DNA of 64,000 nt from a virus. Position 1 is the stretch's first letter; each line of letters begins with the position of its first letter. The position numbers and the translations under genes were made by a program. The stretch is from positions 21,080 through 85,079 of the IMG/VR virus record IMGVR_UViG_3300031456_000001; one strand, given 5' to 3'. Positions 8,549 to 60,782 of this stretch are shown here, piece by piece. Under the pieces are notes generated by a model that was not told the origin of the DNA, did not search any database, and saw nothing but the letters and a program-made list of their open reading frames with translations.

Positions 8549-9439
8549 CTAGTCGGTCGGCGTGTCCCCATGCTCGCCGAGTAGGTCGATGAATGTCGAG
8601 GGGCCGGTGCCGAGCAGCGCCGGCCACGTGCCGGTCGCCCGGCGGCACCGGTCGAGGAGTGTGCCGACCGCGACGGCGGTGTCGAGCGGTGGCGGCTCGT
8701 CGCCGATGACCGTGTCGACCCCGGCGAGCGCGCCGAGGCCGGGCAGCCGGTGGGCGTTGAGGACCGCAATCCAGATGCTGACACCGCCGTCGCCGGAACC
8801 GTCCCGTGGGCCGCCGTTGGCCTGCACCTGCGCACCGGCATCGACGAGCAGCCGCTCCAGAGCCTCCTCCGGGCCGGGTGCGGTGGTGGTGACGTCGAGG
8901 ACGACCCAGATGTCGAGCCGGCCGATGTACGCCGCCCACGGGGCGAGCCCGACGGTGTGCATGGCGTCCTGGGCGGTCTGCCCGTCGCCCGCCTCGATGA
9001 GGACCCGGCCGCCCATGCGGAGCACGCTGTCGCGGGCGGCGGCGGCGAGGTCGCCGATCTCGACAGGCGCCGGGATGATCAACCCAGCGCCGTAGTCCCC
9101 GCGGTGCTGGACGGTGACCCGGTGGCCGAGCCGGTTGAGCCGGCCGAGGTCGTCGGTCAGCCACCGCGGCTCGCCGGTGTAGGCGATGCCGAGGTTGGTG
9201 TCCGGGTGCTGCCACGCCGACGGCAGCACCGACAGCGCTACGGAGTCGGCCGGCGACCCGTACGGGTTGGGGCTGGCGTGCGCGACGTCGGACCCGTCGC
9301 TGACCACGGTGCGGATGGCGAGCCCGTCGCGCAGGCCGCGGCCGAGGCGCGCGGCGACCGGGCCGACGTCGACCCCGGGCGGACCGGTGACGACGGTGAC
9401 GGTGCCGGTGGCGCTGTTGCGGTTGCGATAGGTGCTCAT
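8549..9439 (-). CDS. Hypothetical protein with degenerate P-loop-like N-terminus
   Basis: 296 aa; the ATG overlaps the upstream stop (TGATG). TVTVVTGPPGVDVGPVAARL near the N-terminus follows a beta strand like a Walker A loop, but the GK(S/T) lysine is missing. DIWVVLDVTTT (about 175-185) and RVLIEAGDG (about 144-152) look like core strands of a P-loop-type fold. It could be a decayed ATPase or kinase-like protein that no longer hydrolyses nucleotide. No firm family. Confidence 0.55.
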   Translation of the reverse strand: MSTYRNRNSATGTVTVVTGPPGVDVGPVAARLGRGLRDGLAIRTVVSDGSDVAHASPNPYGSPADSVALSVLPSAWQHPDTNLGIAYTGEPRWLTDDLGRLNRLGHRVTVQHRGDYGAGLIIPAPVEIGDLAAAARDSVLRMGGRVLIEAGDGQTAQDAMHTVGLAPWAAYIGRLDIWVVLDVTTTAPGPEEALERLLVDAGAQVQANGGPRDGSGDGGVSIWIAVLNAHRLPGLGALAGVDTVIGDEPPPLDTAVAVGTLLDRCRRATGTWPALLGTGPSTFIDLLGEHGDTPTD

Positions 9440-9780
9440 CAGAGGACTTCCCCTCGTTCGATCCGGGCCGCCTCGGCGACGAGGTCGGCGGCCTGCTCGC
9501 GCAGCCGGTCAGCCCGCGCCTTGCGAGAGTTGCGATCATCGACATAGGCGTATACCTCGTCGAGTGTCCGCGCTGGACCGGGACCGTCCTTGCGGGCGAC
9601 GCCGTCGCCGCCGCGCAGGAAGTCGTCGGACTCGACGACGGTGACGCCGCACAATTCGCGGATGTGCTCGTCAGCCAGGTAGTGGTCGCCGATGACGTCC
9701 AGCTTGCCATCGACGTACAGCGCTGACCATTCGCCGGAGCCGATATGCAGCTCCAGCTTGGGCCGGTCGTCGGTAGGCAT
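9439..9780 (-). CDS. Hypothetical protein, small and helical
   Basis: 113 aa. The N-terminal half has beta-type sequence (KLELHIGSGEWSALYVDGK). The C-terminal third is a charged helix (RKARADRLREQAADLVAEAA), probably a coiled coil. It is coupled to both neighbours: the upstream stop and its ATG form TGACATG, and its own stop overlaps the next start. No family recognised. Confidence 0.6.
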   Translation of the reverse strand: MPTDDRPKLELHIGSGEWSALYVDGKLDVIGDHYLADEHIRELCGVTVVESDDFLRGGDGVARKDGPGPARTLDEVYAYVDDRNSRKARADRLREQAADLVAEAARIERGEVL

Positions 9781-9781
9781 G

Positions 9782-10144
9782 TCAGCTTGCCGCGGGGGCG
9801 GGGCGGGGATCGGCCTGGGCGCCGGTGGCGGCCGGCATCCACTTCGACTCGACGCCGCCGCAGAAGGGCACGTCCCATTCCGGCACCCGGATCAGGTTGT
9901 TGCCCGCGTCGCGGCTCGTCGTCAGGAACGCGACCTTGCCGATGCAGAGCCGCACCATGTTCGGGTGGCCATCGACGTTGTTGTATGCCTCGATCTTGTC
10001 GGGCTTGACCGCGGGCACGCCCTTCAGGTCGCCGGAGGTGGCGTTGCCCTCGTTGAGGCTGCCGCAGCCGCCGAGCAGGGCGAGGGCGGTCAGGCCGGTG
10101 ACGGTCGCCGCGGCGGCCTTCTTGACGGGGGTCATGGTGCGCAT
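9782..10144 (-). CDS. Predicted lipoprotein
   Basis: 120 aa; ATG with GAGAGGAA upstream. It has a classical lipoprotein signal: basic MRTMTPVKK, hydrophobic AAAATVTGLTALALL, and lipobox LGGC at 24-27, so Cys27 would be lipidated after export. The mature part is small and contains two more Cys (67 and 95) that could pair outside the membrane. Phage lipoproteins are often made by lysogens or early in infection to block superinfection; that role here is inferred only. Confidence 0.7.
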   Translation of the reverse strand: MRTMTPVKKAAAATVTGLTALALLGGCGSLNEGNATSGDLKGVPAVKPDKIEAYNNVDGHPNMVRLCIGKVAFLTTSRDAGNNLIRVPEWDVPFCGGVESKWMPAATGAQADPRPAPAAS

Positions 10145-10170
10145 GGGGGTTCCTCTCGTGGACGGAAAGT

Positions 10171-10195
10171 GCACCCCGGCAGTCTGCCGGGGTGC
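10171..10195 (-). terminator. Perfect 11-bp hairpin
   Basis: GCACCCCGGCA and TGCCGGGGTGC pair around a 3-nt loop. It lies between the zinc-ribbon gene and the lipoprotein gene. A TTGACA (10205-10210) overlaps the end of the upstream gene, so the site may combine a terminator with a decayed promoter. Confidence 0.55.
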
Positions 10196-10206
10196 CACAC
10201 GGTGTG

Positions 10207-10506
10207 TCAATTCTCTTCGGCGCATTCGGTGTGTACCCACGTGCCGGTGTGGTTGCCGGTGGTCTTGAACCGCTGCGGCCGGATCGTGTCGCCCGGCTCG
10301 TAGCGTTCCTGGCATTCGGGGCAGCGTCCGCCGTACCGGGCGATGATCGGCGCCCCGTAGCTGGGCTGGTCGCCGTTGCGTCGGGCGTACGGCTCGACCT
10401 CGGCGGTGAGGCCACGCGCCGTGGCGCCGGCAGCCCCGGCGTGCAGGCGGCAGCCGCACTGTTCGATGAGCAGCTCGGTCAGCTCGCAGCGGTCCTGCGC
10501 GGTCAC
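10207..10506 (-). CDS. Hypothetical zinc-ribbon protein
   Basis: 99 aa from a GTG overlapping the upstream stop (GTGA). An early cysteine group (DRCELTELLIEQCGC) precedes a second one, GRCPECQERYEPGD, closed by HTEC near the C-terminus. This resembles the CxxC...HxxC zinc ribbons found in many actinophage proteins, in which residues after the first CxxC follow YxxGDxI. Function unknown; protein or nucleic acid binding is possible. Confidence 0.65.
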   Translation of the reverse strand: MTAQDRCELTELLIEQCGCRLHAGAAGATARGLTAEVEPYARRNGDQPSYGAPIIARYGGRCPECQERYEPGDTIRPQRFKTTGNHTGTWVHTECAEEN

Positions 10507-10736
10507 GGCGCACCGGTTGCGGCGAAGGCCGCAAGGGCTGTCTCGTACGCCTCGATCTCGCCGCGCGCGTGGTCGCCCAGGGCGACGGTGGCGGCGAGGT
10601 TGTGCCAGCCGGACCCGTCGCCCTGCTCGGCCTGCCGGGCGAACCGGGCGACCTCCTCGACGGCGATGCGGTATCGGTGTCGGGCCGATTTGAGGCGGCT
10701 TTCGATGTGCCTGCGCGCCCACTCTTCGCTCTTCAT
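10503..10736 (-). CDS. Hypothetical helical protein
   Basis: 77 aa; ATG with GGAGCA upstream. Almost entirely predicted alpha-helical with alternating Arg/Glu and Ala (RRHIESRLKSARHRYRIAVE), suggesting a helical hairpin. It overlaps the next gene by 4 nt. No family recognised. Confidence 0.6.
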   Translation of the reverse strand: MKSEEWARRHIESRLKSARHRYRIAVEEVARFARQAEQGDGSGWHNLAATVALGDHARGEIEAYETALAAFAATGAP

Positions 10737-10759
10737 GTGATGCTCCAGGTGATCGAAGG

Positions 10760-10785
10760 GGGCCGGGCGGTGGTCCGCCCGGCCC
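10760..10785 (-). terminator. Perfect 11-bp hairpin
   Basis: GGGCCGGGCGG and CCGCCCGGCCC pair around TGGT. It lies in the 58-bp gap after the 202-aa gene and before the 77-aa gene. No U-tract, so it may terminate, pause or protect RNA ends. Confidence 0.55.
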
Positions 10786-10794
10786 GGGGGCGAC

Positions 10795-11403
10795 CTACCA
10801 GGGCAGGCCGCGGTGCTTGGCGCAGGTCTCGCCGTAGCCGGCGGCCCGTGAGCGGGCGTTGGTCAGCGGGTGCGGGCCGAACGCGCAGATCCCCAACGTC
10901 CGGCCGAACAGCCCGGCGGCGGCGGCCACGTCCTCCAGGATGTGACTGGCGGCGAAGACCTGGTGCCGGGCGTGCAGCTTCTGCTGGCTGAGGCCGGTGC
11001 CGTTGGAGATGAGCTGGTACAGCCGGCGCGTGCCGTTGCGGAACTCGACGACCTCGAAGAAGGTGATGTCGTTCCCGGCGGCGGTCGGCGTGGTGCGCGG
11101 CAGGGCGTACCGGCCGGCGGGCAGCTTCGCGGCCATCCGGTTCGCCTCGGCGTACAGCTCGCCCAGGTTCGGCGTGGCGTACGTGATCGGCGTCTGCGGC
11201 TTCGGCTGCGCGTGCTGCGCCACGAACGTCTGCGCCCGCTCCCGGGCCGCCTGGCGCTGCGGGGTGCGGGCCGGGGTGCCGGTGCTGCCGCCGGTGATCT
11301 GGCGTAGCACCTGGCCCTGCTCGCGGGCGACCTCGGCCAGGGGGCGCAGGCCGTTGCGCTCACGCCAGGTGCTCAGCGATCCGAGGGTGGCGGACTGGGT
11401 CAT
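10795..11403 (-). CDS. Hypothetical protein with DUF6011-like C-terminal zinc motif
   Basis: 202 aa; ATG with GGAGGT upstream. The middle part (about 95-135) has a beta-rich pattern (DITFFEVVEFRNGTRRLYQL). The C-terminus GICAFGPHPLTNARSRAAGY plus GETCAKHRG resembles the DUF6011 pattern (CxxCGRxLT...S...GxGPxC), but one expected Cys is replaced, so metal binding may be altered. Transcribed from the promoter at 11454-11483 through a leader with a 9-bp hairpin. Confidence 0.6.
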   Translation of the reverse strand: MTQSATLGSLSTWRERNGLRPLAEVAREQGQVLRQITGGSTGTPARTPQRQAARERAQTFVAQHAQPKPQTPITYATPNLGELYAEANRMAAKLPAGRYALPRTTPTAAGNDITFFEVVEFRNGTRRLYQLISNGTGLSQQKLHARHQVFAASHILEDVAAAAGLFGRTLGICAFGPHPLTNARSRAAGYGETCAKHRGLPW

Positions 11404-11453: not shown

Positions 11454-11483
11454 AAGGTAGCAAACTGTCACACGGCGTGTCAA
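11454..11483 (-). promoter_or_regulatory. Promoter of the recurrent TTGACA family
   Basis: TTGACA (11478-11483), 18-nt spacer with the internal GTGACAG, TACCTT (11454-11459). A second TTGACA lies at 11491-11496. Drives the 202-aa gene. Confidence 0.75.
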
Positions 11484-16516: not shown

Positions 16517-18208
16517 GTGGCCATCGTGCGCATGATCAGCAGGGACGTCGAGGAGTTCAGGGCGTTCCAGACCCGCAACACCGAAGTTGGCCGGATCCGG
16601 ATCGGGCAGTTCGTCACGCCGGAAGGCAAGCGCGGCCGCCCGGTGAAGCTCGACAGGTTCCGGCTGACCAGCCCGACGGAGAACCACATCCGGGTGGCCG
16701 CCACCAGGTACGGCGGCACGCCCCAGCTGTACCAGCCGCAGGGCGGCGGCGCACAGCAGTGGGAGGTGATCACCAAGGCGGACGCGCTGGACGTGTGGAT
16801 CGTCAACCGGCAGAACATCGACCCGGTCTACGAGATGTGGGGCGCGGGCCGCACCTGCACCCGCCGGTGCGACGGCGAGTGGAACACTGTGCTGCAGGAG
16901 CCGTGCCTGTGCAACGACCCGGAGCGCCGCCCGGCAGACCCCCGACAACTGTGCAAGATCACAACTCGGGTGAACGTGATGTTGCCGAAGGTGGCCGGGT
17001 TGCACTCGTGGCGTTTCGAGACGCACAGCGAGAACGCCGCCGTGGAGATGGCCGCCCCGTCGGTGGCCGGGGTGGTCCGGATTGCGCCGGTGCCGGTTCC
17101 GTCGACCCTGCGGCTGCGCCGGGAGCAGCGCCGGGAGCGCAACCACGAGAAGGGGACCTTCGAGTCGAAGGACTTCTACGTGCCGTGGTTCGACCTGTCC
17201 CAGATCGGCGCGCAGGCCCTCGCCGGGGGCGAGGAGGCGCTGATGGAGGCGCTCACCGGGGCGGGGGCGCCGGAGCTGCTGGCCGACCAGCGGGCGATCG
17301 GCACGGCGCCGGTGTCGGTCGTCCCAGCGCCGGGGCCGCAGCCGGGATCACCCACCGGGCAGCCGCCCCTCGCACCGGACCAGGGGATTGGCGACGAGCT
17401 GCGGGCGAAAATCCTGCAGGACATCGAAGGTCGCAGCACCGTCGAGGCGCTCATGGAGGTGAAGGCGAAACTGCAGGATCGTGGCATCACCGACGCCGCG
17501 GTCCGTGCGGCGTGGCGTTCGAAGCTCAACGCCATCGAGGCCGCCGCGAAGGCGGTGCTGGCCGACGCGGGCGAACCGGAGCCGGAATACGCGGTCGGCG
17601 ACACGGTCACCGTCGGCGGCGTCGAGTTCACGAAGATCTCCGACGACCCGTTCCCGCCGATGGATGACTCTCCACTCGCCCGGGCGATCCGCGGGGAAAC
17701 CCCGGACCCGGACGCGCTGGCCCGGGACATGGCGCTCACGGGCGGCCGGGCCTTCTTCGACGACGAGCTGCCCCAGTACGACGAGGCGGTCAGTCGTGGC
17801 GCCACGCACACCACGATCGTCGAGGCGGGTGGGCCGGTGCACTGGCTGGCCACCGACGACCAGGCCCGCGCAACGGCGCAGATCGAGGCCGAGATCGCCC
17901 ACGAGATGCAGCGCGCCGAGGACGAGGAACGCCAGGCCGCCGCGGCGCCGGTCGAAGACCCGTGGGCCGAGGCCGTCGAAGGCACCGTCGTCGGCGACGA
18001 CGGCCTGCCGGCGCTGCCGCCGGGCAGCTACACCTTCAACGACGAGTTGCCGAAGCTCATGGCCATCGCGGGCCGGCGCACCCCGCCGCTGACCACGGGC
18101 GGGGTCCGCGACGTCCTCATCGCCGCGTTCAGCCTGGCGAAGGCCAGTGACGCCACCGGCTACCAGGTCGCCCAGATCACGGAGGCCATGAAGCGCGGCA
18201 TCCTGTGA
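16517..18208 (+). CDS. phiC31 gp3-like protein (recombination directionality factor family)
   Basis: 563 aa from GTG 16517, which has AGAGAGG 9 nt upstream; an ATG at 16508 has no room for a ribosome site. The first 230 residues show the gp3-like pattern: G.IRIGQFVTPEGKRGRPVKL, RLTSPTENHI, YGGTP, WEVITKADALDVWI. A Cys cluster follows (CTRRC, then PCLC, then LC), and then TRVNVMLPKVAGLHSW. gp3 of phiC31 is the serine-integrase directionality factor and may also act in DNA metabolism. The acidic C-terminal half (350-563) is an extension with an Ala/Glu helix. No integrase is in the window. Confidence 0.7.
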   Translation: MAIVRMISRDVEEFRAFQTRNTEVGRIRIGQFVTPEGKRGRPVKLDRFRLTSPTENHIRVAATRYGGTPQLYQPQGGGAQQWEVITKADALDVWIVNRQNIDPVYEMWGAGRTCTRRCDGEWNTVLQEPCLCNDPERRPADPRQLCKITTRVNVMLPKVAGLHSWRFETHSENAAVEMAAPSVAGVVRIAPVPVPSTLRLRREQRRERNHEKGTFESKDFYVPWFDLSQIGAQALAGGEEALMEALTGAGAPELLADQRAIGTAPVSVVPAPGPQPGSPTGQPPLAPDQGIGDELRAKILQDIEGRSTVEALMEVKAKLQDRGITDAAVRAAWRSKLNAIEAAAKAVLADAGEPEPEYAVGDTVTVGGVEFTKISDDPFPPMDDSPLARAIRGETPDPDALARDMALTGGRAFFDDELPQYDEAVSRGATHTTIVEAGGPVHWLATDDQARATAQIEAEIAHEMQRAEDEERQAAAAPVEDPWAEAVEGTVVGDDGLPALPPGSYTFNDELPKLMAIAGRRTPPLTTGGVRDVLIAAFSLAKASDATGYQVAQITEAMKRGIL

Positions 18209-39399: not shown

Positions 39400-40931
39400 G
39401 AGACGTCCTCCTGGAGAACGACGACCGGGCCGGCGCGCAGCTCCGGCGACAGGAACGGCCACGCCTCCGGCAGGCTCACCAGCCGGACCGGCCACACGCC
39501 GGTGCCGGGCGTCCACAGCGTGTCCGGGGCGCTGCCCTCGTTGAGCATGAACCGCCGGAAGTAGCCGATCGAGCCGATGGAGGCGCCGGAGGTGTAGTGC
39601 ACGTCCATGTCGGCGTACGCGGCCCCGACCGGCGCACTCGCGGTCGCGACGAGCTGCGTCCACGCGCCCGACGAGCTGGCCACCGGCGTGCCGGACGTCA
39701 CCGACCCGGTGAGCACCCCGGCGGCGTCCCGCCAGTACAGCCGGGGCGTGTAGGTGACGATCGCGTCGGTGCCGCCGCCGCGGACGTAGCAGGAGAAGCA
39801 CAGAGCCCGGCCGCTGACCACCGGGACGCCGGAGCCGAACGTGCTGCTCGGCCAGTCGACGGTGAGCGCGGAGGCGGCGATCGGGTCGGTGTTGTTGAAC
39901 GTCCAGGTGAGGCTGCGCGGCCCGGCGTCGCTGAACGTGCTGCTCGACCCGAGCCCCATGGCGGTGGGGGTGGCGCTGAAGTTGTCGACCAGGATGTTGA
40001 CGGTGCCGTTGCTGTTGCTCGTCTCCCGGCGGGCCCCGACGCCGGCCAGGTTCCCGGTGGTCAGCGACGCGTCGGTGCCGGTGCTCTGCCAGGTGAGGGG
40101 CGCCGTTCCCGTGGTGACGTTGTAGGCGTAGGCGCGCAGGGTCGTACCGGACAGGTCGAAGACGACCTGCCACGTGTCACCGGCGGCGTGCGCGGCGAGG
40201 GTGAAGTTCGCCCCCCCGGTGGTCAGCGCAAGGCTGCTGCCGGCCACCCGCTTGGTGATGCTGAGTGTGGTGCTGCCGCTGGCGGAGAAGTTCAGGGCGG
40301 CTTCGTAGTAGTTGCTGCTGTCGGTCCAGCGGCCGGGGACGCGCAGGATGATCGACGCGCCGGTCGCCACCACGGGCAGCGTGAACTGGGTGACGATCGT
40401 CTGGTTGGGGCATCCGGTGTCGACGGTGGCGTAATACAGGTTGTTGATGGTGACGGTGCTGATCTGGCCTGCGGTGCCGGTGGTGCTGTAGTGCGCGGCT
40501 GTCGACGTGATGGCCCAGGCGTGCCCGGATGTGGAGGTGCCGAAGCCGTTGGAGACGATGCCGCGGTTGAACGTGTCGGCCGGCGGCGTCTCGGTGACAG
40601 CAAACCCGGCAGCGTCGTTGGTGACGCTGGTTGCGCCGGACACGTTGGCGGGCAGCATGTTGCGCTGGCCGGGGTTGAGGAACGCGAACGGCCCGGGGCC
40701 TTCGTGGCCTTCGGCGAACGCCTGCATGATCGCGAAGTCCTCGCGGGTCAGCTGCTCGTAGTTGATCGTGTAGGTGCGGGCGCCGCCGACCATCTGGTCG
40801 ATGGCGTAGCCGCCGACGCCGAGTTCGAAGACGGAGATGCGCCGCTGCCGGGTGCCTTCGACGGTGCCTTTCGGGGACCGGATGGCGACGAGGCTGCCGG
40901 GGCGGCCCAGGTACATGCGGTTGTCGGTCAT
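39396..40931 (-). CDS. Distal tail-type protein with carbohydrate-binding-like modules
   Basis: 511 aa; the ATG overlaps the tape measure stop (ATGA). The first 100 residues (YLGRPGSLVAIRSPKGTVEG, then FELGVGGYAIDQMVGGARTY) resemble the tail-tip adaptor of actinophages. The remaining 400 are Thr/Ser/Gly-rich beta modules such as DTWQVVFDLSGTTLRAYAYN and NGTVNILVDNFSATPT, typical of LamG- or CBM-like sandwiches. Position behind the tape measure fits a distal tail (Dit) with lectin modules. Confidence 0.68.
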   Translation of the reverse strand: MTDNRMYLGRPGSLVAIRSPKGTVEGTRQRRISVFELGVGGYAIDQMVGGARTYTINYEQLTREDFAIMQAFAEGHEGPGPFAFLNPGQRNMLPANVSGATSVTNDAAGFAVTETPPADTFNRGIVSNGFGTSTSGHAWAITSTAAHYSTTGTAGQISTVTINNLYYATVDTGCPNQTIVTQFTLPVVATGASIILRVPGRWTDSSNYYEAALNFSASGSTTLSITKRVAGSSLALTTGGANFTLAAHAAGDTWQVVFDLSGTTLRAYAYNVTTGTAPLTWQSTGTDASLTTGNLAGVGARRETSNSNGTVNILVDNFSATPTAMGLGSSSTFSDAGPRSLTWTFNNTDPIAASALTVDWPSSTFGSGVPVVSGRALCFSCYVRGGGTDAIVTYTPRLYWRDAAGVLTGSVTSGTPVASSSGAWTQLVATASAPVGAAYADMDVHYTSGASIGSIGYFRRFMLNEGSAPDTLWTPGTGVWPVRLVSLPEAWPFLSPELRAGPVVVLQEDVS

Positions 40932-43621
40932 CGCGTCGTCGTCCTCCCGGTGTTGACCCAGCCGTCGCGGGTGCGGCTGCCGACGGCGTTGGCGCTGGCC
41001 ACGGCGTCGGGGTTTTTGGCGATGTAGAGGGGGACGGCCTGGCGGATGCCTTCGCCGAGGTCGGCGACGAGGGTGGTGCCGCCGACGCTGACGTTGGGTG
41101 CGGCGACGTTGACGGTGGGGCTGAACCCGCCGGTGATCATGTTGGCGGTGGCGCCCAGGTACCGCTCGAAGCTCGGCTGGGTGTCCTGCATGCCCTTGAC
41201 GACGCCGGGCAGGATCCAGCGGCCCACCTCCATGCGCATCACCTTGGAGGGGCTGGAGATGCCGAGCGCACCGAGGAAGCCGTCTTTGATCTTCTGGGCG
41301 GCGCGTCGGGCCATGTCGACCGCCCACGACAGGGTGTCGGCAATGCCGTTGGCGAGGCCGTGCAGGACGTCCCGACCGGCGCCGTACAGCCACGAGCCGG
41401 CGCCGCTGAGCGCATTCTTCACCGCACCGGGGATACCGCGGATCCAGCCCATGACGGCGTTGAAGCCGTCGCTTGTGGCCCGCTTCGCCCAGTCCCACGC
41501 GGCGGAGATCTGCCCGCCGATGGCGGAACCGATCGACGACAGGGCGCCCCATGCCTGGCCGGGCAGCGCGCGCAGGTTGGCGACGCTGCGGGCGATGCTT
41601 TCCCTGGCGTAGTTGACGGCCCAGTCCCAGGCGCTGGAGATTGAGGTCATGATCGCCGAGCCGACCTGCGACATGAACGCCCACACCTGGCCGGGGAACG
41701 CCTGCAGGTTGGCGACGCTGCGGGCAATGCTCTCCTGGATGTAGCTGACCACCCAGTTCCAGCCGTCCCGGGCCCAGCCGGGGACGTCGGTGACGAAGAA
41801 TTTGTAGAGGAGGCCCCCGGCGTAGCCGACCATGTAGAAGAAGCTGTCGTAGATCCGCTGGGCCGCGGTGGAGATCATGCCGGGGATGCCCATGATGAAC
41901 GAGCCGATCCGGCCCGGCAGCGCACCCAGCCAGGCCAGGACGGCCCCGCCGCCGCTGACGATCGACGACCAGAGGCTGCTGAACCAGCCGCCGACTGCGG
42001 AGCCGACGTCGGAGAAGAAGCCGGCGATCGCTGACCACGCGGAGGCGACGGCGCCGGACACCGACCCCCACAGGTCGGCCGCCCACCGGCCGACGGCCCG
42101 GCCCATGTCGGCGATGTCGTGGCCCAGCTCCTTGAAGAAGGGGCCGATGCCGCGGACGAACGCGAACACGGCGTTGAGCGCCTTGTAGGCGCCGACGGTG
42201 GCGGCGATGAGGGCGACGAAGGCGTTGCCGGCCCAGTGCACCATCACGCCCAGGTTGTGCAGGGTTTCCTGACCCTCCTTGGACTTCAGGTACAGGTTGA
42301 CCTTGGCGATGGCGTCGGCCATGCCGTTGAGGGTGTCGGTGCCTTCGTCGCCGAACGAGCCGAGCAGGGTGACCGCGAACTCGCCGAGGCCGCGCAGGAC
42401 GGCCCACAGTTTCTTGCCGGTGTCCCAGGCGCGTTCCAGCCAGCCGTTGAGCTTGCCGTCGGATGAGATCTGGGTGAGCCAGCCGGCAAGGCTGGCGATG
42501 CCGTCACTCATGGCCCCGAAGAGTCGTTCAACCCACGGCAGGCTGGCCTGGACGAGATGGCCGATGCCGTCGAACAGCTGAATGAGCGTGGGGCCGAGCC
42601 GGTCGAGGATGCGCGCGGTTGCCGCGAACAGGTCGTTGATGCCCTGCACGGCCCGCGGTGTCGACAGCAGGCCCGCGAGTCCCGCCACGATGCGCCCGAG
42701 GGCGCCCGCCACGGTGGTCAGCCCCTTGCCAAGGGTGGGGATGAGCGCGGTGCCGAGCTTCGACAGCTGCCCGACGAGCGGCCCGAAAAAGGCGTCCTGC
42801 ACGGACGTCTTCAGGCCCTTGAACAGGGGTTTCAGGCCGACGATCTCCTTGGCGACCTTGCGCGCGTTGGGCGCCAGGCCCTTCAGGGCCTCGTTGAACT
42901 TGTCGACGTCGCCGGACAGGCCGGCGCCGACGGCCTCGCCGAAGCCTTTCAGGGCAATGACGAGGGGGGCGACCGCGGCGAGCAGAACTCCGATGGCACC
43001 GGGAATGAGGAGTAGCGCCGCGGAGAGCTGCAACAGTGCCCCGGCGAGGCCGAGGGCCAGGGGGATGAGCAGCGAGAAAGCGGCGATCGGCAGCACGCCG
43101 CCGATACCCCCGGCGACACTGCCGATCTGGGAGAACACGCTGGAAATGCTCTTGAACGCCTGCCCGGCCTGCTGCGCGCCGGTGCTGATCGCGTCGGCGA
43201 ACCCCGAAGCGAACGTGCTGAAGAATTTCGATGCGCTGGACATCAGGCCGGAGAACAGCCGGCCGGCGCCGCCACCGGAGCCGCCGGGGATGAGCGCACT
43301 CAGCAGGCCCTTGCCGCGCCCACGGCCGACGCTGCGGAACAGGTCCAGGAACCGACTGCTGATGCTGCGGCTGCCGGCGCGGACCTCCCGGTCGCCGTCC
43401 TCCATGAGCTGCTTGAACGGGTTGAGGGCCCGGAACTTGTCCATGAGGCCGGTGGAGAACTTGCGGCCGGACTCCTCGCCGGACTTGGCGAACGCCTTCT
43501 CCTCGGCGGCCAGCTCGCCGTCGACCTCTTTGAAGAAGCTCTTGACGTCTTTGAAGGCGCCGTCGGTGTCGGCCTCGATGTCGAGGTATCCCTGCGCGAT
43601 CTCGAAGCCCTTGCCGGCCAC
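40928..43621 (-). CDS. Tape measure protein
   Basis: 897 aa; GTG with GGGAGGGG upstream. It starts with EIAQGYLDIEADTDGAFKDV, a typical tape measure start. A central hydrophobic zone covers about 170-235 (GGIGGVLPIAAFSLLIPLAL, ALLQLSAALLLIPGAIGVLL). Helical Trp-rich repeats follow (WAFMSQVGSAIMTSISSAWD and AWGALSSIGSAIGGQISAAW). By the usual 0.15 nm per residue it predicts a tail near 135 nm. It follows the frameshifted chaperone gene. Confidence 0.9.
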   Translation of the reverse strand: MAGKGFEIAQGYLDIEADTDGAFKDVKSFFKEVDGELAAEEKAFAKSGEESGRKFSTGLMDKFRALNPFKQLMEDGDREVRAGSRSISSRFLDLFRSVGRGRGKGLLSALIPGGSGGGAGRLFSGLMSSASKFFSTFASGFADAISTGAQQAGQAFKSISSVFSQIGSVAGGIGGVLPIAAFSLLIPLALGLAGALLQLSAALLLIPGAIGVLLAAVAPLVIALKGFGEAVGAGLSGDVDKFNEALKGLAPNARKVAKEIVGLKPLFKGLKTSVQDAFFGPLVGQLSKLGTALIPTLGKGLTTVAGALGRIVAGLAGLLSTPRAVQGINDLFAATARILDRLGPTLIQLFDGIGHLVQASLPWVERLFGAMSDGIASLAGWLTQISSDGKLNGWLERAWDTGKKLWAVLRGLGEFAVTLLGSFGDEGTDTLNGMADAIAKVNLYLKSKEGQETLHNLGVMVHWAGNAFVALIAATVGAYKALNAVFAFVRGIGPFFKELGHDIADMGRAVGRWAADLWGSVSGAVASAWSAIAGFFSDVGSAVGGWFSSLWSSIVSGGGAVLAWLGALPGRIGSFIMGIPGMISTAAQRIYDSFFYMVGYAGGLLYKFFVTDVPGWARDGWNWVVSYIQESIARSVANLQAFPGQVWAFMSQVGSAIMTSISSAWDWAVNYARESIARSVANLRALPGQAWGALSSIGSAIGGQISAAWDWAKRATSDGFNAVMGWIRGIPGAVKNALSGAGSWLYGAGRDVLHGLANGIADTLSWAVDMARRAAQKIKDGFLGALGISSPSKVMRMEVGRWILPGVVKGMQDTQPSFERYLGATANMITGGFSPTVNVAAPNVSVGGTTLVADLGEGIRQAVPLYIAKNPDAVASANAVGSRTRDGWVNTGRTTTR

Positions 43622-43668: not shown

Positions 43669-44465
43669 TCAGCCGAACTCGATCATTCCTGCGGCCGCGG
43701 CCTCGGCGAAGCCGGGGATGGTGCCCAGTTCCCCCGCGGCGACCGGGATGATCTCCCGGCCGGTGAGGCCCTGCGCCTCCTTGCGTTGCTCCTTGTCGTA
43801 CAGCTCCCGTTCGGCGATGGCGCGGATGGCGCCGTGGTAGGCGGGGAGTCGGCGGGCGAAGCGGAAGAATTTCCCCGCCTCCATCTCCCACATGTTGTCG
43901 ATGCGGTGGACGGCCGACATGTCTGATTCAACGTCGTCGATGTAGTCGCGGACCCAGGCGATCTCCCCGATCCGCTCGGTCAGTTTTTTGCAACCCCCTC
44001 CAACGCGCCCATGACCTTGACCATGACCTTGTTGAGCACGGCCTGGAGATCCTCGGGGCGGAGGCCCTTGAAGCCGACCAGGGCTTTCCAGCCGTCGTCG
44101 CCGATGACCGACTTGAGGAGGCGGCCGACGGCGACCCATTCGCTGTCGTGGGTGGCGGCGTCGAGGAACACCATGGCCAGGTGGGGGGTGAACTCGACCG
44201 GCACGCGGTATTCGACGCCGTCGAGGCTGAACAGCTTCTCCGTCTCGACCGGGTCGGCATCGCCGGTGTGGAAGTCGAGGTCCCCGTCGGGTGTCGGGGC
44301 CGCCTTGGCGGTCTCGTAGAAGTTGCGCAGCTCCGGCGGCACGTCGTCGAGGGCGGTGTGTCGCCGGGCGGGCGCCGCCTTCTTCACCGGCGCCCGCCTT
44401 GGCGTGGATGTGGTCTTCCCTGCGGTCTTCGCCGCGGCTTTCGTCGCGGTCCTGGCTGCCGGCAT
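43669..44465 (-). CDS. Tail assembly chaperone, long form by -1 frameshift
   Basis: The short form is 161 codons (43980-44465), ending at the TGA 43980-43982. Just before it, heptamer A AAA AAC (43983-43989) follows the frame XXA AAA AAC. A -1 slip reads on as KLTERIGEIAWVRDYIDD and ends at 43669, giving about 265 residues. This is the known siphovirus G/GT arrangement, in which both forms assemble the tail around the tape measure. The N-terminus is Lys/Ala-rich. The long form carries a helix-rich C-terminal domain (RLPAYHGAIRAIAERELYDK). Confidence 0.85.
43980..44465 (-). CDS. Tail assembly chaperone, short form (gpG-like)
   Basis: 161 aa; ATG with GGGAGG 8 nt upstream. The first 40 residues are Lys/Ala/Pro-rich (KAAAKTAGKTTSTPRRAPVK). 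The globular part has PVEFTPHLAMVFLDAATHDS and KALVGFKGLRPEDLQAVLNK. The unshifted product is made in excess in such systems. It sits between the major tail and tape measure genes. Confidence 0.8.
   Translation of the reverse strand: MPAARTATKAAAKTAGKTTSTPRRAPVKKAAPARRHTALDDVPPELRNFYETAKAAPTPDGDLDFHTGDADPVETEKLFSLDGVEYRVPVEFTPHLAMVFLDAATHDSEWVAVGRLLKSVIGDDGWKALVGFKGLRPEDLQAVLNKVMVKVMGALEGVAKN
43983..43989 (-). promoter_or_regulatory. Programmed -1 frameshift site AAAAAAC
   Basis: Slippery heptamer A AAA AAC in the frame of the short chaperone, directly before its TGA. The A-run stands out in a GC-rich gene. Slippage gives the GT-type product. A local stimulator hairpin is not obvious. Confidence 0.85.
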
Positions 44466-55154: not shown

Positions 55155-55184
55155 AGGCTAGCAAACTGTCACGCGACGTGTCAA
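55155..55184 (-). promoter_or_regulatory. Promoter of the recurrent TTGACA family
   Basis: TTGACA (55179-55184), 18-nt spacer with GCGTGACAGTTTGC, TAGCCT (55155-55160). The leader is nearly identical to that at 33904-33962. It overlaps the stop codon of the frameshift extension. Confidence 0.82.
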
Positions 55185-55597
55185 CTTCCGGGGTTGACGA
55201 GGTCGGGGTGGGCCATGTTGGCCTTGCGACTTCCGGTGTCGCCCTCGATGGCCTTGGAGTCGAGGTAGCGCCGCCGCAGCGCCTCCAAGAGGCGTTTGAT
55301 GGTCTGCGGCTTCGACGCGCCGGCCTCGACGGTGACCTTGTTGTCCCGGGCGACGGCCCGCAGCGCGGGCGCGCTGTAGCCCTTGAGGATGTTCTCGGCG
55401 GCGAAGTCGGACGGGGCGTTGCGCAGGCTGTAGGCCAGGTCCGTCTCGCCTTCGATGCGGGGGCGGAGCCGGGCGCGGTCGGCGTCGGTGGCGCCGACGG
55501 GAATGGGCGTCGGGGTGGGCGCCCGCAGGGCGGCGGGCGCAGCCGCGCGGACGGCCGGAGCCGCCGTCTCGGTGCGCCCGCCCTGCGGGCTTACGCT
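55181..55597 (-). CDS. -1 frameshift extension of the giant protein (138 residues)
   Basis: Frame entered by a -1 slip on G GGA AAA at 55597-55603; no start codon with a ribosome site lies in it. It begins SVSPQGGRTETAAPAVRAA, then a Pro/Ala linker. A SAP-like two-helix part follows: AENILKGYSAPALRAVARDN, then ASKPQTIKRLLEALRRRY. It is coded like a gene and ends at the TGA in the next promoter. Annotation as an extension rather than a separate gene is inference. Confidence 0.6.
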   Translation of the reverse strand, partial: SVSPQGGRTETAAPAVRAAAPAALRAPTPTPIPVGATDADRARLRPRIEGETDLAYSLRNAPSDFAAENILKGYSAPALRAVARDNKVTVEAGASKPQTIKRLLEALRRRYLDSKAIEGDTGSRKANMAHPDLVNPGS

Positions 55598-55603
55598 TTT
55601 CCC
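55576..55603 (-). promoter_or_regulatory. Candidate -1 frameshift signal 2 (GGGAAAA plus hairpin)
   Basis: Heptamer G GGA AAA (55597-55603) in the frame of the 1270-aa ORF, 6-nt spacer GCGTAA, then hairpin GCCCGC-AGG-GCGGGC (55576-55590). Spacing and hairpin are the same as at signal 1. G GGA AAG of phage lambda is a close relative of this heptamer. Confidence 0.65.
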
Positions 55604-58600
55604 AGGCTGGCCAGCCTGGCGACCGCGGCGACCGCGGCGGTGGCGCGGGCCGCGCGCTGCGGCCGCCCCTCCAACCTCCTGAGGCCGTCGAAGGTCCGTA
55701 GGCGCTGCTCGGCGGTGAACTTGGCCCAATCCTCGGCAGTCACCCGCTCGGCGCCGTTGAGTAGCCCGAACGGGCTGGAGTCGGTGCCGCGGGACGCGGC
55801 GATGAGGTCCACCCCGGCGCGGCTGACGCCGAGCCTGTCGGCCGTGTGGCGTTCGGCGGTGTTGTGGATGCCCTTGCGGATCTCGTCGAGGGGGGTGCGG
55901 GTCGGTGCGAGCATGCCGAGGTGCGCGGCGACCTTGCGCAGTTCGGGTGCATTCATGTCGGCGGCGAGCCGGTCGGCCTCGTCGGGGGTGACGGTGCGCA
56001 GCTTCGCCACGAACTCTTCCGGGGTGGCCTTCGGTGCCGCGCTGTGCACCTGCGGTCCGGCGGCTTGCTCGGCGCCGACCTTGCGCAGGATCTTCTCGTT
56101 AGGTCGGGTGGCGTGCATGACGCCCCGGCCGCCGGTCGGCGTGGTGTAGGCGACCTTGACGTTTTTGACGCCGACCTCCGTGACGATGCCCCGCCGATAG
56201 CGGCTGAACGTGTCGACCATGACCACGTCGCCGGCTTTGACCGGCTGGTCGGGTGCGGCGGCGAAGCCGAGCTGCCGGGCGTCGTCGTCGCCCCCGGCGA
56301 CGGCCATCAGCTTCAGGGCCTCCTGGTAGGTGACGTCCCGGCCGAGCTTGGAGGTTTCGTGCCGGGCGGCGATCTCGATCTTGGCGGTGGCGCCGGTGCG
56401 GCCGCCGCCTTTCGGGGTGGGTGCGGTGTCGGCGACGTGCCGGAGACCTTCGCCGGTGATGTAGCTGCCGTTGACCCGCTCGCCGTCCTGGGTGGCCTCG
56501 GCCAGGTAGTTGCCCCGGATCAGCTCGCCGGTGATGTGGCCGGACTCGTAGGGGTTTTTGGTGCCCAGCTCCTTGGCGATGGCGTTGGCGTCCCTGGACC
56601 ATTTGATGGCGGCGTTGACCTCGGTCTTGTCGGGGTCATCGACGGTGTATCCGGGCTGGGGACCGAGGCGTTCGTGGATGACGGCGGCGGTGCGGAGCAG
56701 GCTGTCACGGCCGTGGGACAGCTCGGAGCGGGGCCGGGTGTCGCCGCCGGGCTTCTTCGTCACGTTCGCCTCCGTGGCGGAGGTCGGTGCGACTCGGTCG
56801 GCCTTGATGTGGGTGGTGACCGTGCTGGCACCCTTCCCGGCGGTCCCGTCGGCGCGCAGCTTGGTGCCGCGCACCATGACGTTGCCGTTGCGGTCCGGTT
56901 CGCCCAGCACTTCGACGTCGGCCAGCTGGTAGGGCTGCTTGTACGTCAGGTCGGCCCCGGCCGGGACCGTGATGGTCGAGCCGTTCTGGATGCGGTTCAC
57001 GTTCGCCTCCGTGGTGGGTGCGTTGCTCACCCCACCAGTATGCGAACTGTCACGCCGTGTGTCAAGTTGGCCGCGGCGTTCCGTCTCCAGCTTCGCCAGG
57101 CTCGCCTCGTGGCGCGCCCGGATGCCCGGCGTCAGGTCCGGCTTCGCGAGCGCGTCGCGGTGCTGCCGGATCTCCCGGTCGAGGGCCTCGCGGTCCAGTT
57201 CGGCGACCGTCTTGTTGCGGCCCTCGTAGCGATGGAACATGCGTCCGCTGATGCGGCGCGCATCGAGGCTGCCGCCGGTGCTGGCCGCCGTCTCGCCGTT
57301 GGTGAGGACGTCGGCGGCGTGGGCGATGGTGTCGGCCCAGCCCTCCAGGCGCGTCTCGCCGCTACCGTTCTCCGAGTGCACGGCATAGACCTGCTCGCCG
57401 TCGCGTACGGTCGAGGTGACCCACCCGGCGGTCTGGCCGTTGCGGTCGGTGACCTTGAACTCTCCGAACGGGTTGTCGGGGGTGTGCCGGATGCGGCCCA
57501 CCTTGAGGTCGGACCGCTGCCCGGACGGCCCGGCCATGATCTTGCGGTACAGGTCGGCGTGGTCCATCCGGCCGTCGGCGATGGCCCGGATCTTGGCGCC
57601 ATTGTCCTTCGGGTCCTTCGACTCCTGCAGGTCACTGACACGCTTCTCGGTGGCTGCGGTGCGGGCCTTGGCCAGGTTGGCGGTGCGCTTCTCCGCGGTG
57701 GCCGCACTGACCACCGGTGGGGCAGCGCCACTCCCCCGCTGCCTGCTGTTGATCCGGGCTCGCATGGCGTCCCAGCCGACGCCGTTGATCGTGAAGTCGG
57801 GGTTGCGGGTCTCGCCCCGGTCGACAGCGGCGAGCGCATCCGCGTACCGCCCGTCCTTCATTGCCAGGCGCGCCTGCTCGGCCACGTCGGCAGAGGCAGC
57901 CTTGCGGGCGGCCTCCTTCGCCCTACCGCCGTCTTTCGGCCCGTCGAGTACCCGGGGGTTGGCGTCGATGTGGGCGCGCACCGCGTCTTGGACGGTACTG
58001 GTGCCGTACTTCTTCTCCAGGGCCTGCAGGTGCCCTTCCGTGACGTACCGGGCGGTGTCGTCACGGCTGAGGTTGAGTGCGCCGCCGTGGTTGGCTGCGG
58101 CGTAGTCCTCGGTGGCCGCCTGGATGCGCGCCCGGTCGAGGGGCGCGATGGCGTCGCCCTTGCCCGGGGCGGCGGCGAGCGCGCCGCGCTTCGCGGCCGG
58201 GTTGATCCGGGTGCGGACGGGAGCGGCGGGCGCCTTCGCAGCCTCCGGCTTGACGACGTCGTGCGGCTGGATCCGGGTCTCGATCGTCCGGCCGTTCTGA
58301 TCGACCCGGCTCACGTGCAGCGTCTCACCCGGTCCGGCGTCGCGGGTCACCGTGTACTCGCGCGGCTTCGCGCCGGGCGGCAGGGCGAAGGTGGACAGCA
58401 CCTTGTCGCCCTTCTTGTGGCCGACCTCCCCGGCGAACACCTCCTCGTGCAGGGCGTGCATGTCGGCGGCGATCTTGGCCAGACCGGACGGCCCGGATGC
58501 CGGCGCGGGCACCTTGGCGGGCTTGGCCGACTCGCCGCGCAGCCGGGCGGCGGCCCGCTCCGCGAGCGCGTTGCCGTCGCGACGCCCCAAGATGGTCAGC

Positions 58601-59403
58601 TCGGTCGCCTGCTCTTCGCTGATGCCGCCGCCGGAGCGCACCTCGAAGTCGTAGTTCTTTGCGCCGGGGTCTCCGTCACCGGCCGCTGCGCGGACCGCGT
58701 TCCAGACGGCGACCTTCTCGGCCACCTTCGCATCGGCCTTGTCGGCACCCTCCGTGGTGGCCATGCTCGGCAGACTGTCGTGCAGCTTCTGCACTTCGCT
58801 GCGGGTGCGCGGGGTAAGGTCGGTGCGGGCCAGCTCGCCGCGCAGTACCTCGCCACCACGGCGATTGTTCTCAGCGGCAGCCCGCACCCGGGCGGCATTT
58901 TTCGCATCGAAGATGATCGACTCGGCAAGGGCGCGCTGGCCGTCCGGCAGTTTCTTAACAGCGGTGTCGCCGGGGATGCCGTTGGCCTTCTTCAACGCCT
59001 TGACGTGGGCTTTCGCAGCCTCTTCGACATCGATCCGACCCAGCGCCTGCGCCGCCGCGCTGGCCCGCTTCCGGTGGGCGAGGAAGTCGTCTTTCAGGGC
59101 CTGGTTCTCGTCCCGGAACACCTGGACCTTGCGGGCGGCGGCATCGATACGCCACGTCTCCCAGGCGGGAGTGTTCTCGAACTCTTTGAGCGCCTGCCGC
59201 CATTCCTTCTTGCGTTCGACGTCGAGCAGGTTGGTACCGCCGTAGCCGTTGATCTCGTAGTCGACACCCTGGGCGAACTGGGTTTTACGGTCGCCGCTCC
59301 AGCGGTTCGGGTCGCTCATGTCGACGCCGATAACGGCGCGGCCTTCGCTGGCCTGCGTAGTGCGCTTCGTCTCGACCGGTATCCGGCCGCGCATGGGGGG
59401 CAT
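55591..59403 (-). CDS. Giant structural-type protein (1270 codons) with internal fused gene borders
   Basis: ATG at 59403 lacks a clear ribosome site, but the frame also continues upstream to the frameshift site at 59463. The first half is long helices (KTQFAQGVDYEINGYGGTNL, VQVFRDENQALKDDFLAHRK). Around 57000-57065 the frame reads through a full copy of the recurrent promoter, a Shine-Dalgarno and GTG. A second GGAGGCGAAC-GTG lies at 56763. The C-terminal third has a KOW/SH3-like stretch (VKAGDVVMVDTFSRYRRGIV) and SAP-like helices (ELRKVAAHLGML). Likely a virion-associated protein ejected with DNA. Confidence 0.6.
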   Translation of the reverse strand: MPPMRGRIPVETKRTTQASEGRAVIGVDMSDPNRWSGDRKTQFAQGVDYEINGYGGTNLLDVERKKEWRQALKEFENTPAWETWRIDAAARKVQVFRDENQALKDDFLAHRKRASAAAQALGRIDVEEAAKAHVKALKKANGIPGDTAVKKLPDGQRALAESIIFDAKNAARVRAAAENNRRGGEVLRGELARTDLTPRTRSEVQKLHDSLPSMATTEGADKADAKVAEKVAVWNAVRAAAGDGDPGAKNYDFEVRSGGGISEEQATELTILGRRDGNALAERAAARLRGESAKPAKVPAPASGPSGLAKIAADMHALHEEVFAGEVGHKKGDKVLSTFALPPGAKPREYTVTRDAGPGETLHVSRVDQNGRTIETRIQPHDVVKPEAAKAPAAPVRTRINPAAKRGALAAAPGKGDAIAPLDRARIQAATEDYAAANHGGALNLSRDDTARYVTEGHLQALEKKYGTSTVQDAVRAHIDANPRVLDGPKDGGRAKEAARKAASADVAEQARLAMKDGRYADALAAVDRGETRNPDFTINGVGWDAMRARINSRQRGSGAAPPVVSAATAEKRTANLAKARTAATEKRVSDLQESKDPKDNGAKIRAIADGRMDHADLYRKIMAGPSGQRSDLKVGRIRHTPDNPFGEFKVTDRNGQTAGWVTSTVRDGEQVYAVHSENGSGETRLEGWADTIAHAADVLTNGETAASTGGSLDARRISGRMFHRYEGRNKTVAELDREALDREIRQHRDALAKPDLTPGIRARHEASLAKLETERRGQLDTRRDSSHTGGVSNAPTTEANVNRIQNGSTITVPAGADLTYKQPYQLADVEVLGEPDRNGNVMVRGTKLRADGTAGKGASTVTTHIKADRVAPTSATEANVTKKPGGDTRPRSELSHGRDSLLRTAAVIHERLGPQPGYTVDDPDKTEVNAAIKWSRDANAIAKELGTKNPYESGHITGELIRGNYLAEATQDGERVNGSYITGEGLRHVADTAPTPKGGGRTGATAKIEIAARHETSKLGRDVTYQEALKLMAVAGGDDDARQLGFAAAPDQPVKAGDVVMVDTFSRYRRGIVTEVGVKNVKVAYTTPTGGRGVMHATRPNEKILRKVGAEQAAGPQVHSAAPKATPEEFVAKLRTVTPDEADRLAADMNAPELRKVAAHLGMLAPTRTPLDEIRKGIHNTAERHTADRLGVSRAGVDLIAASRGTDSSPFGLLNGAERVTAEDWAKFTAEQRLRTFDGLRRLEGRPQRAARATAAVAAVARLASLGKA
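56760..56777 (-). repeat. 18-bp direct repeat carrying SD and GTG, copy 2
   Basis: TCACGTTCGCCTCCGTGG on the plus strand; minus reads CCACGGAGGCGAACGTGA. Identical copy at 56997-57014. GGAGG is 5 nt before GTG in both. Inside the 1270-codon frame. Confidence 0.75.
56997..57014 (-). repeat. 18-bp direct repeat carrying SD and GTG, copy 1
   Basis: Same 18 bp as 56760-56777. Lies 21 nt after the -10 of the embedded promoter (57035-57065), exactly as a real start would. Confidence 0.75.
57035..57065 (-). promoter_or_regulatory. Recurrent promoter embedded in the giant ORF
   Basis: TTGACA (57060-57065), 19-nt spacer with GCGTGACAGTTCGC, TACTGG (57035-57040). It is translated in frame as QLDTRRDSSHTGG. 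It probably marks an older gene start, at GTG 57000. Confidence 0.65.
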
Positions 59404-59432
59404 GCCACCAGCCTGACCGCTGTCACGCGACG

Positions 59433-59438
59433 TGTCAA
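59433..59438 (-). promoter_or_regulatory. TTGACA of a diverged recurrent element at a gene border
   Basis: TTGACACGTCGCGTGACAG in the minus sense keeps both TGACA words, but the -10 (AGGCTG at 59409-59414) does not match TANNNT. It lies between the 441-aa and 1270-aa frames and is read through by the predicted frameshift product. Confidence 0.45.
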
Positions 59439-59441
59439 CAT

Positions 59442-59469
59442 GCCCGCCCTGCGGGCCTACGCTTTTGGG
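59442..59469 (-). promoter_or_regulatory. Candidate -1 frameshift signal 1 (CCCAAAA plus hairpin)
   Basis: Heptamer C CCA AAA (59463-59469) in the frame of the 441-aa ORF, 6-nt spacer GCGTAG, then hairpin GCCCGC-AGG-GCGGGC (59442-59456). A -1 slip continues without a stop as SVGPQGGHVDTSRDSGQAGG into the 1270-codon frame. Confidence 0.65.
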
Positions 59470-60782
59470 CCTGCCCCCTTCGCGAACTCGAACCGGTCCA
59501 GATTGCCGCTACGACCCTCGGCGCTGAGCTGCTCATGGCCGTGGATCTTCGTCAAGCCCGCCATCTTGCGGTCGTTGGCGATCAGCGCATCGATCAGCTC
59601 GGCCTTCGACTTGCCCTTCGTGGAGACGCTGCGGCGGCCGTATTTCTGCAGCCACTCCAGATCCTGGGCCTCGTAGTAGGACCGCATTCCGGCCTCGTCG
59701 AAGTTGGCGATCTCCGCCGCATATCCGATCTCCGGTGCCGGCGCCGTCTTCGCGACGGCCCGCTCCGCGGCGGCCGCGGCCACCGGGGACACCTGCGGCC
59801 TCGCCGGGCCGGTTTCGTCGCGCTGGCCGACACCCTTCGGGTTCAGCCGCATCTTGCGGGCCTCGTCTTTGGCCTTCAGTGCGTCGGCGATCTGCGCGTT
59901 GGACTTGCCCCGCCCGGAGATGCCGGCGATCCGGGCCAGCGCGAGCAGCGTGGTGCGGTCCATGTCGGGGTAAGCGGTAGCGCCGTTTTTGCTGTCGGGT
60001 ACGGCCTTGATGGCATCGACGACGGCACGGATGTCGACGCCGGGCTTGTCGAGGATGTCGGCGCCGAGCTGGCCGCCCTCGCCGGGCCTGGTGGCCAAGA
60101 GCGCGTCGCGGGGGTCGGTGTAGCCGGCCGAGGCGGCGGACCTGCGCGCGGCGACGGCTTTCGCGGCACCGCCGTAGCGGTTGGCGAAGTCGGCGTCGGA
60201 GACCTTCGGCACGTCCATCGACAGGGGCGCTTCGACGATGCCGCCGCGCTGTTCGGCGGCCATCTGGTCGGCCTTCTTCAACGCCCGGTCGGACAGGCTG
60301 GTGCGGGTCTTGCGGTCGAGCGGCACTGCCACGCCGCCCAGGCCACGCTGTTCGGCGATCCGGTCGGAGACCTGCTGCAGGGCGGGCTTCGGCTCCGCCT
60401 TCCGCGCAGCAACCGCCTTCGACGCCTTGCCGTAACGGCTCTCGATGTCCTTCTCGGACGTCTGCACGTCGAGGTTGACCGCTTTGGCGTTGATCGCCTC
60501 CTGCGCGTCCTGGGCCACCGTCCTGCGGGCACCCGGGGCAGCCTTCTTCGGCGCCGCCGCTTTCGTCGGCGGCGCGGCCTTCTTCGGCGCGCTGAACGAG
60601 CTGAACGGCTGCATACGCTCCTGGCGTTCACCGCCGTGCGTCATCGAGAAGCCCTTGACCCCGGCCTCCTGGGCGGCCTTGAACGCCCGCGCAGCCCACG
60701 CGGGGCTGCCCTTCTTCGCGAACCGACCGTCACTGGCCCGCGGGTGCTGCCACTCGCGGAAGATCCTCTTCGTCGCAGCCAT
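59457..60782 (-). CDS. HPR-domain protein, first part of predicted frameshift polyprotein
   Basis: 441 aa; ATG at 60782 follows the previous stop as TGACATG, with GGGGAGAGG upstream. REWQHPRASDGRFAKKGSPA is the short WxxHPRxxxGRFxxKG start seen in many portal-adjacent phage proteins. A Lys/Ala/Pro linker (60-85) follows, then two copies of RYGKASKAVAARKAE/RYGGAAKAVAARRSA (about 110 and 220). Two SAP/Rho_N-like helical pairs are TTLLALARIAGISGRGKSNA and GRRSVSTKGKSKAELIDALI. The last codons overlap a -1 slip site. Likely structural. Confidence 0.62.
   Translation of the reverse strand: MAATKRIFREWQHPRASDGRFAKKGSPAWAARAFKAAQEAGVKGFSMTHGGERQERMQPFSSFSAPKKAAPPTKAAAPKKAAPGARRTVAQDAQEAINAKAVNLDVQTSEKDIESRYGKASKAVAARKAEPKPALQQVSDRIAEQRGLGGVAVPLDRKTRTSLSDRALKKADQMAAEQRGGIVEAPLSMDVPKVSDADFANRYGGAAKAVAARRSAASAGYTDPRDALLATRPGEGGQLGADILDKPGVDIRAVVDAIKAVPDSKNGATAYPDMDRTTLLALARIAGISGRGKSNAQIADALKAKDEARKMRLNPKGVGQRDETGPARPQVSPVAAAAAERAVAKTAPAPEIGYAAEIANFDEAGMRSYYEAQDLEWLQKYGRRSVSTKGKSKAELIDALIANDRKMAGLTKIHGHEQLSAEGRSGNLDRFEFAKGAGPKA

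Follow-up and report, generated by a model that had tools for sequence, protein, structure and literature searches.

Two tandem -1 frameshift signals probably join three reading frames of a soil bacteriophage into nested forms of one giant head-region protein

A 64-kilobase (kb) window of DNA from a soil bacteriophage (64,000 nucleotides (nt) of the IMG/VR record IMGVR_UViG_3300031456_000001, one metagenomic record of 85,079 bases) contains three open reading frames (ORFs) on its minus strand, here called A, B and C, that are separated by two near-identical candidate frameshift signals (Table 1; coordinates are those of the window). Through two tandem programmed -1 frameshifts, a single modular head-region protein is probably made in nested forms, A, AB and ABC. 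At site 1 the transfer RNAs (tRNAs) for proline and lysine on C_CCA_AAA would step back by one base, as would those for glycine and lysine on G_GGA_AAA at site 2, and the slippage would leave a cognate AAA in the A site. Because the tRNAs would slip by -1, helped by a hairpin located 6 nt downstream, a fraction of the ribosomes would pass the stop codon. The predicted products are A, with 441 amino acids (aa), AB, with ~1730 aa, and ABC, with ~1867 aa; a C-terminal Rho_N/SAP-like module would be carried by ABC alone, and the ratio of the isoforms would be set by the efficiency of the slip. The anatomy and phase of the signals, the frame switch, the lack of a start for frame C, the relative with a single ORF and its in-phase heptamers were computed; from these we infer slippage itself and its efficiency, and the isoforms may act together in the capsid or on the packaged DNA.

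Table 1. Features of the three-frame region and of a comparison site in the 64-kb window.
Feature	Coordinates	Strand	Remarks
Frame A, 441-aa ORF	59457..60782	(-)	N-terminal module TKRIFREWQHPRASDGRFAKKGSP; SAP/Rho_N-like modules at aa 270-309 and ~370-406
Site 1 slippery heptamer C_CCA_AAA (CCCAAAA)	59463..59469	(-)	in phase X_XXY_YYZ with frame A
Site 1 spacer GCGTAG	59462-59457	(-)	
Site 1 hairpin GCCCGC-AGG-GCGGGC	59456-59442	(-)	6-base-pair (bp) stem
25-nt cassette, copy 1, AAAAGCGTAGGCCCGCAGGGCGGGC	59442..59466	(-)	A-run, stop TAG, 6-bp hairpin
20-codon bridge SVGPQGGHVDTSRDSGQAGG	59404..59462	(-)	-1 frame, from slip to ATG of the 1270-aa ORF
Promoter-like repeat TTGACACGTCGCGTGACAG within the bridge	59420..59438	(-)	could permit separate expression of frame B
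Frame B, 1270-aa ORF	55591..59403	(-)	modules homologous to L019, 58% and 41% identity
Promoter-like repeat embedded in frame B, then GGAGG and GTG	57047..57065	(-)	arrangement shared with L003 at 16351
18-nt palindrome CCAGGCTGGCCAGCCTGG adjoining site 2 on the upstream side	55602..55619	(-)	read from sequence, folded
Site 2 slippery heptamer G_GGA_AAA (GGGAAAA)	55597..55603	(-)	in phase X_XXY_YYZ with frame B
Site 2 spacer GCGTAA	55596-55591	(-)	
Site 2 hairpin	55590-55576	(-)	sequence identical to site 1 hairpin
25-nt cassette, copy 2, AAAAGCGTAAGCCCGCAGGGCGGGC	55576..55600	(-)	A-run, stop TAA, 6-bp hairpin
Frame C, 138 codons	55181..55597	(-)	apparently reachable by -1 slippage only; C-terminal Rho_N/SAP-like module
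Tail-assembly chaperone ORF ending in A_AAA_AAC (43989-43983), continuing in -1	43980..44465	(-)	ordinary comparison site

The first-pass annotation, made from the letters alone, had placed near-identical signals at the ends of the 441- and 1270-aa ORFs with both heptamers in phase, and all of the elements were located as claimed, on the minus strand. Each site comprises a 6-nt spacer followed by a perfect 6-bp stem, a distance within the 5-9 nt expected for a downstream stimulatory structure. The 25-nt repeat (AAAAGCGTARGCCCGCAGGGCGGGC) occurs in two copies even when three mismatches are allowed, and in none of 100 shuffles; no further copies of the cassette were found in the 85,079-base record, nor any in a scan of IMG/VR. 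The two copies differ at one position, with the stop retained either way (TAG or TAA), and are preceded by CCC at site 1 versus GGG at site 2, a triplet that is homopolymeric and in the right phase in both cases. XXX(AAA/TTT)N heptamers number only 17 on the minus strand of the window, and three of these close an ORF that goes on in the -1 frame, namely sites 1 and 2 and the A_AAA_AAC of the tail chaperone. A heptamer followed after 4-10 nt by a perfect stem of at least 6 bp occurs four times on both strands, and two of these four are sites 1 and 2. Synonymous shuffles place an in-phase heptamer within the last five codons at a rate of 3.6% for A and 3.4% for B. Measurements in E. coli have shown C_CC.A_AA.A to be shift-prone, and G_GG.A_AA.A occurs at the shift sites of insertion sequence elements and was called inefficient in E. 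coli by earlier studies cited in the same work (PMC4066793). At site 2 (55517-55596, minus strand) a longer stem is possible with a downstream inverted copy of GCCCGCAGGGCGG (GCCGCCCTGCGGGC); this longer region reaches a z value of -2.0, and is the sole region that does.

The repeats might instead be transcription terminators or plain intergenic DNA repeats, given the GC-rich hairpin after each stop and the short CTTTT run that follows the hairpin on the plus strand. On the coding strand, however, no T run follows the hairpin, terminator calling flagged neither of the two, and a terminator predicts no heptamer, no phase and no start-less downstream frame; such a function is almost certainly not the explanation. 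Other candidate mechanisms were rejected as well: transcriptional slippage, since the runs are only A4, and hopping over the hairpin, since the matching landing codon seen (GCG) preserves the zero frame. An insertion of 25 nt into a continuous ORF was likewise discarded; a simple insertion fails to explain the split because deleting the 25 nt does not restore the frame.

The -1 slip at site 1 leads without a stop into the frame of the 1270-aa ORF, as had been predicted, and the slip at site 2 leads into the 138-codon frame C. The earlier statement that frame C has no plausible start agrees with the position of its first ATG, GTG or TTG after the slip, at codon 105 of 140. By a codon log-likelihood trained on the genes for the portal, the 311-aa protein, the scaffold and the capsid, the favoured frame changes at both sites, from A to B at the first and from B to C at the second, and frame C displays a strong codon bias, with a third-position GC content (GC3) near 1.0 over most of its length. 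Coding thus continues in the -1 frame past the stops, as seen in codon likelihood and in the homology of B and C to single-ORF relatives. The full predicted ABC product has 1867 aa, which corrects the initial estimate of about 441 + 20 + 1270 + 138 residues. The region is the one described as lying behind the portal, but the 311-aa gene is located between the portal and frame A.

A search with the portal found one virus present in two records, L003 and L004 (2 differences in 21,983 bases), whose portal is 63% identical to that of the window. Its locus consists of a single uninterrupted ORF of 1843 aa that codes in a single frame along its whole length and has the same neighbours as in the window, the portal and a 311-aa homologue, and the scaffold and capsid. 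The N-terminus of this ORF matches frame A (37% over 105 aa), a middle stretch matches residues 133-320 of frame A, another part matches frame B in the surroundings of its embedded promoter-like repeat, and the C-terminus matches frame C (47% over 74 aa), in which the conserved residues are kept. A second relative, L019 (portal 68%), combines modules of frames A and B in one ORF that is truncated by the end of the contig: the N-terminus of A, two modules of B (with 41% and 58% identity) and, further on, another A module. L020/L010 and L014 hold the N-terminus only, and the record of L021 ends too early, although its portal (86% identical) shows that closer relatives exist. Alignments of portal and capsid against genome contigs revealed no relative, module alignments none beyond L003/L004 and L019, and DNA and protein searches of 50,697 phage records with the three-frame region, frame B or the L003 protein gave no match. 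Because of the ORFs of L003/L004 and L019, frames A, B and C appear to be pieces of one modular, shuffling protein; the proposal that they belong together is supported, decisively by the single ORF in the former and further by the A/B fusion in the latter. The module order of L019, which differs from that of the window, suggests that the giant protein evolves by module shuffling.

Unbroken genes in relatives, together with the mosaic nature of phage genes, would also be compatible with fission or decay, in which an ancestral long gene was split by frameshifts into pieces that are now separate or dying. The start-less frame C nevertheless retains a strong codon bias and the conserved C-terminal residues of L003, and decay does not predict a duplicated in-phase heptamer-stop-hairpin cassette, so that this history is extremely unlikely.

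The two heptamers of the window recur in phase (X_XXY_YYZ) and in unchanged order within the 1843-aa ORF of L003, CCCAAAA at position 16139 and GGGAAAA at position 17417. These heptamers hold the only two of the eight AAA codons of the ORF that are preceded by an A-ending codon. Synonymous-codon shuffles of the ORF yielded two such heptamers in 0 of 1000 cases and one heptamer with a hairpin in 1 of 1000. The site at 16139 is composed of a GGAGG at 16123, which starts 16 nt upstream, the heptamer, a 5-nt spacer and a 7-bp hairpin, with a -1 stop after one codon (PKR*); the second site has no comparable local hairpin. With every element of this layout in place, the 16139 site, if real, resembles a dnaX-type truncating frameshift signal. 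It would shorten its product while the window signal would extend it, an apparent reversal of polarity. On site conservation in relatives, which the first-pass annotation had proposed to examine, the observations point both ways: the L003 heptamers are the same, in phase and order, but the ORF is unbroken and the other relatives end too early.

The continuous relatives bear on the quality of the sequence too. If one A had been lost by sequencing or assembly error from each of two A5 runs, the gene would truly be continuous as in L003; one extra base per A-run would join the frames, and the window is a single record. This is very unlikely, as the same rare consensus-level indel would be needed twice, in short runs that must each also follow a homotriplet by chance, and L003, with two records differing at 2 of 21,983 bases, has A4 at both heptamers. 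Joining of the frames by -1 slippage is supported by the in-phase heptamers with different XXX triplets, the duplicated cassette, the start-less frame C and the heptamers of L003, and also by the tail-chaperone -1 site of this phage.

Since the bridge between A and B contains a copy of the promoter-like repeat, the fact that it is open carries little weight by itself. Site 2 alone could be programmed, with A and B as separate genes, B made from its own ATG at 59403 and the bridge open by chance: A and B are each an ORF in their own right, a TTGACA repeat lies directly upstream of the ATG of frame B, and a 20-codon gap is readily open in GC-rich DNA. By contrast, the cassette at site 1 is the same as that at site 2, L019 has A and B modules in one ORF, L003 carries an in-phase CCCAAAA with a hairpin, and the repeat copy upstream of the ATG combines a poor -10 (CAGGCT) with the lack of a clear Shine-Dalgarno (SD) sequence. 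A single programmed site is therefore unlikely.

Several observations weigh against two programmed shifts. The arrangement is known from a single metagenomic record, and an ATG of its own, preceded by a promoter-like repeat, is available to frame B. L003 and L019 make the long protein without any shift, so that the shift is not conserved as a requirement. The sites lie at aa 1053 and 1479 in L003 versus aa 440 and 1729 in the window, the order of landmarks being kept with no residue-level alignment, and in L019 the order of the A and B modules is partly changed. The local hairpins are no more stable than shuffles of this GC-rich RNA (z -0.72 and -0.53). The full layout of the L003 16139 site (SD-like box, heptamer, hairpin and immediate -1 stop) arose in 0 of 5000 synonymous shuffles, with the SD and -1 stop criteria chosen after the site had been seen.

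The term polyprotein, used in the first-pass annotation, overstates the case because nothing indicates cleavage, and nested isoforms describe the product better. No protease families were found in frames A, B and C with Pfam, PHROGs and NCBIfam; a protease of the host or another one of the phage might still cleave the product. The C-terminus of L003 matches the Rho_N family PF07498 with an E value of 3.9e-5 and 24.0 bits, just under the cut-off of 24.9, and related modules are detected in A, C, L003 and L019 by a profile that was built in this analysis with the window module among its seeds. The module of frame C thus appears to be Rho_N/SAP-like, of a nucleic-acid-binding type, and slippage would decide how many copies of the protein carry it. 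Fold comparison of this module gave no confident match, and the structure predictions of one B module (predicted local distance difference test score 77) and of C (66) had no PDB match at E <= 0.001; the B module with 58% identity to L019 is predicted to be all-helical. From the position of its gene, the giant protein may have a role in the head.

A comparison with known systems reveals precedents for each ingredient. Two consecutive -1 shifts join three frames into three nested products in gag-pro-pol of mouse mammary tumour virus and human T-cell leukaemia virus (PMC5009743); these proteins are retroviral, protease-processed and encoded with other heptamers, while the window has no evidence of protease or cleavage. 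Frameshifts in phage head genes that give a C-terminally extended form are known from T7 gene 10A/10B, T3, Lactobacillus A2 and Listeria A118/A500/PSA (PMC5009743), and this restricts the novelty claimed at first. Those shifts are located at the end of a coat gene and often add an immunoglobulin-like domain, whereas the protein of the window is giant, modular and unrelated, with two sites. In csoS2, a -1 shift of ~50% produces a short and a long version of a protein that carboxysome formation requires and that acts inside the shell (PMC5009743); the likeness considered here is one of mechanism, csoS2 being non-phage with one site. For dnaX (tau/gamma) both polarities are recorded: the E. coli shift truncates, and a minority of bacteria have a zero-frame stop right after the site (PMC5009743). 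There, too, a heptamer and a hairpin set the ratio of truncated to full-length protein, L003 resembling the E. coli form and the window the reversed one, but dnaX is another gene and protein, with A_AAA_AAG in place of the C_CCA_AAA and G_GGA_AAA of the window and its two sites per gene. Neither two programmed shifts in one phage gene nor, for a phage gene, a duplicated cassette and an apparent reversal of polarity were found in the open-access papers searched; the tandem duplicated cassette in one phage gene may be new.

If the proposed shifts are real, a bacterial virus would have two tandem -1 shifts in one gene, an arrangement described for retroviruses (PMC5009743), and would express a giant head-region protein in three graded forms. 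Gene callers would give two unlinked ORFs and miss the C-terminal module entirely. The window and L003 constitute a natural pair: signals of one kind seem to extend the protein in the former and to truncate it in the latter, which makes it possible to test whether selection preserves the ratio of isoforms and not the frame. Tentatively, and with more doubt than confidence, the 25-nt heptamer-stop-hairpin might be regarded as a portable frameshift element, copies of which were placed at the joints between modules of a phage protein that shuffles fast, the truncated-to-full-length ratio being kept across relatives while polarity flips (truncating in L003, extending in the window, with two rungs in the window).

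The repeat TTGACACGTCGCGTGACAG is a genome-wide promoter-like element with 9 matches in the window; a degenerate form of it, with 1 mismatch allowed, matches 18 times in the record. In the window it occurs, as TTGACACGTCGCGTGACAGTTTGCTAGNCT, at 11465, 14394, 19856, 30840, 31327, 33944, 55166, 57047 and 59420; it mostly precedes genes with an SD sequence, and is present in the L003 virus too. In-frame copies inside the giant gene are found in the bridge, at 57065, at 16351 in L003 and at 9336 in L019. These have a 17-nt spacing and CANNNT, versus an 18-nt spacing and mostly a TANNNT-type -10 in intergenic copies. They may be internal promoters, in which case B alone could also be made, or scars of module fusion. 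The repeat, the leader and a GGAGG-GCGAAC-start (GTG or ATG) are conserved within the long ORF in the window (57000-57065, minus strand) and in L003 (16351-16440), which suggests an internally started shorter product in both phages. The L019 region 8855-11014 has the giant-protein modules in another order than the window, and one joint bears an in-frame promoter-like repeat.

The tail-assembly chaperone of this phage offers a separate, third site, in another gene and position. Like the lambda G/GT type, it has an X_XXY_YYZ heptamer near the zero-frame stop, at 43989. The assignment was made from the layout and from the position before the tape measure gene, with no family match. The chaperone region with its -1 extension, which begins KKLTERIGEIAWVRDYIDDVE, covers 43669-44465 on the minus strand and lies directly before the tape measure gene (40928-43621).
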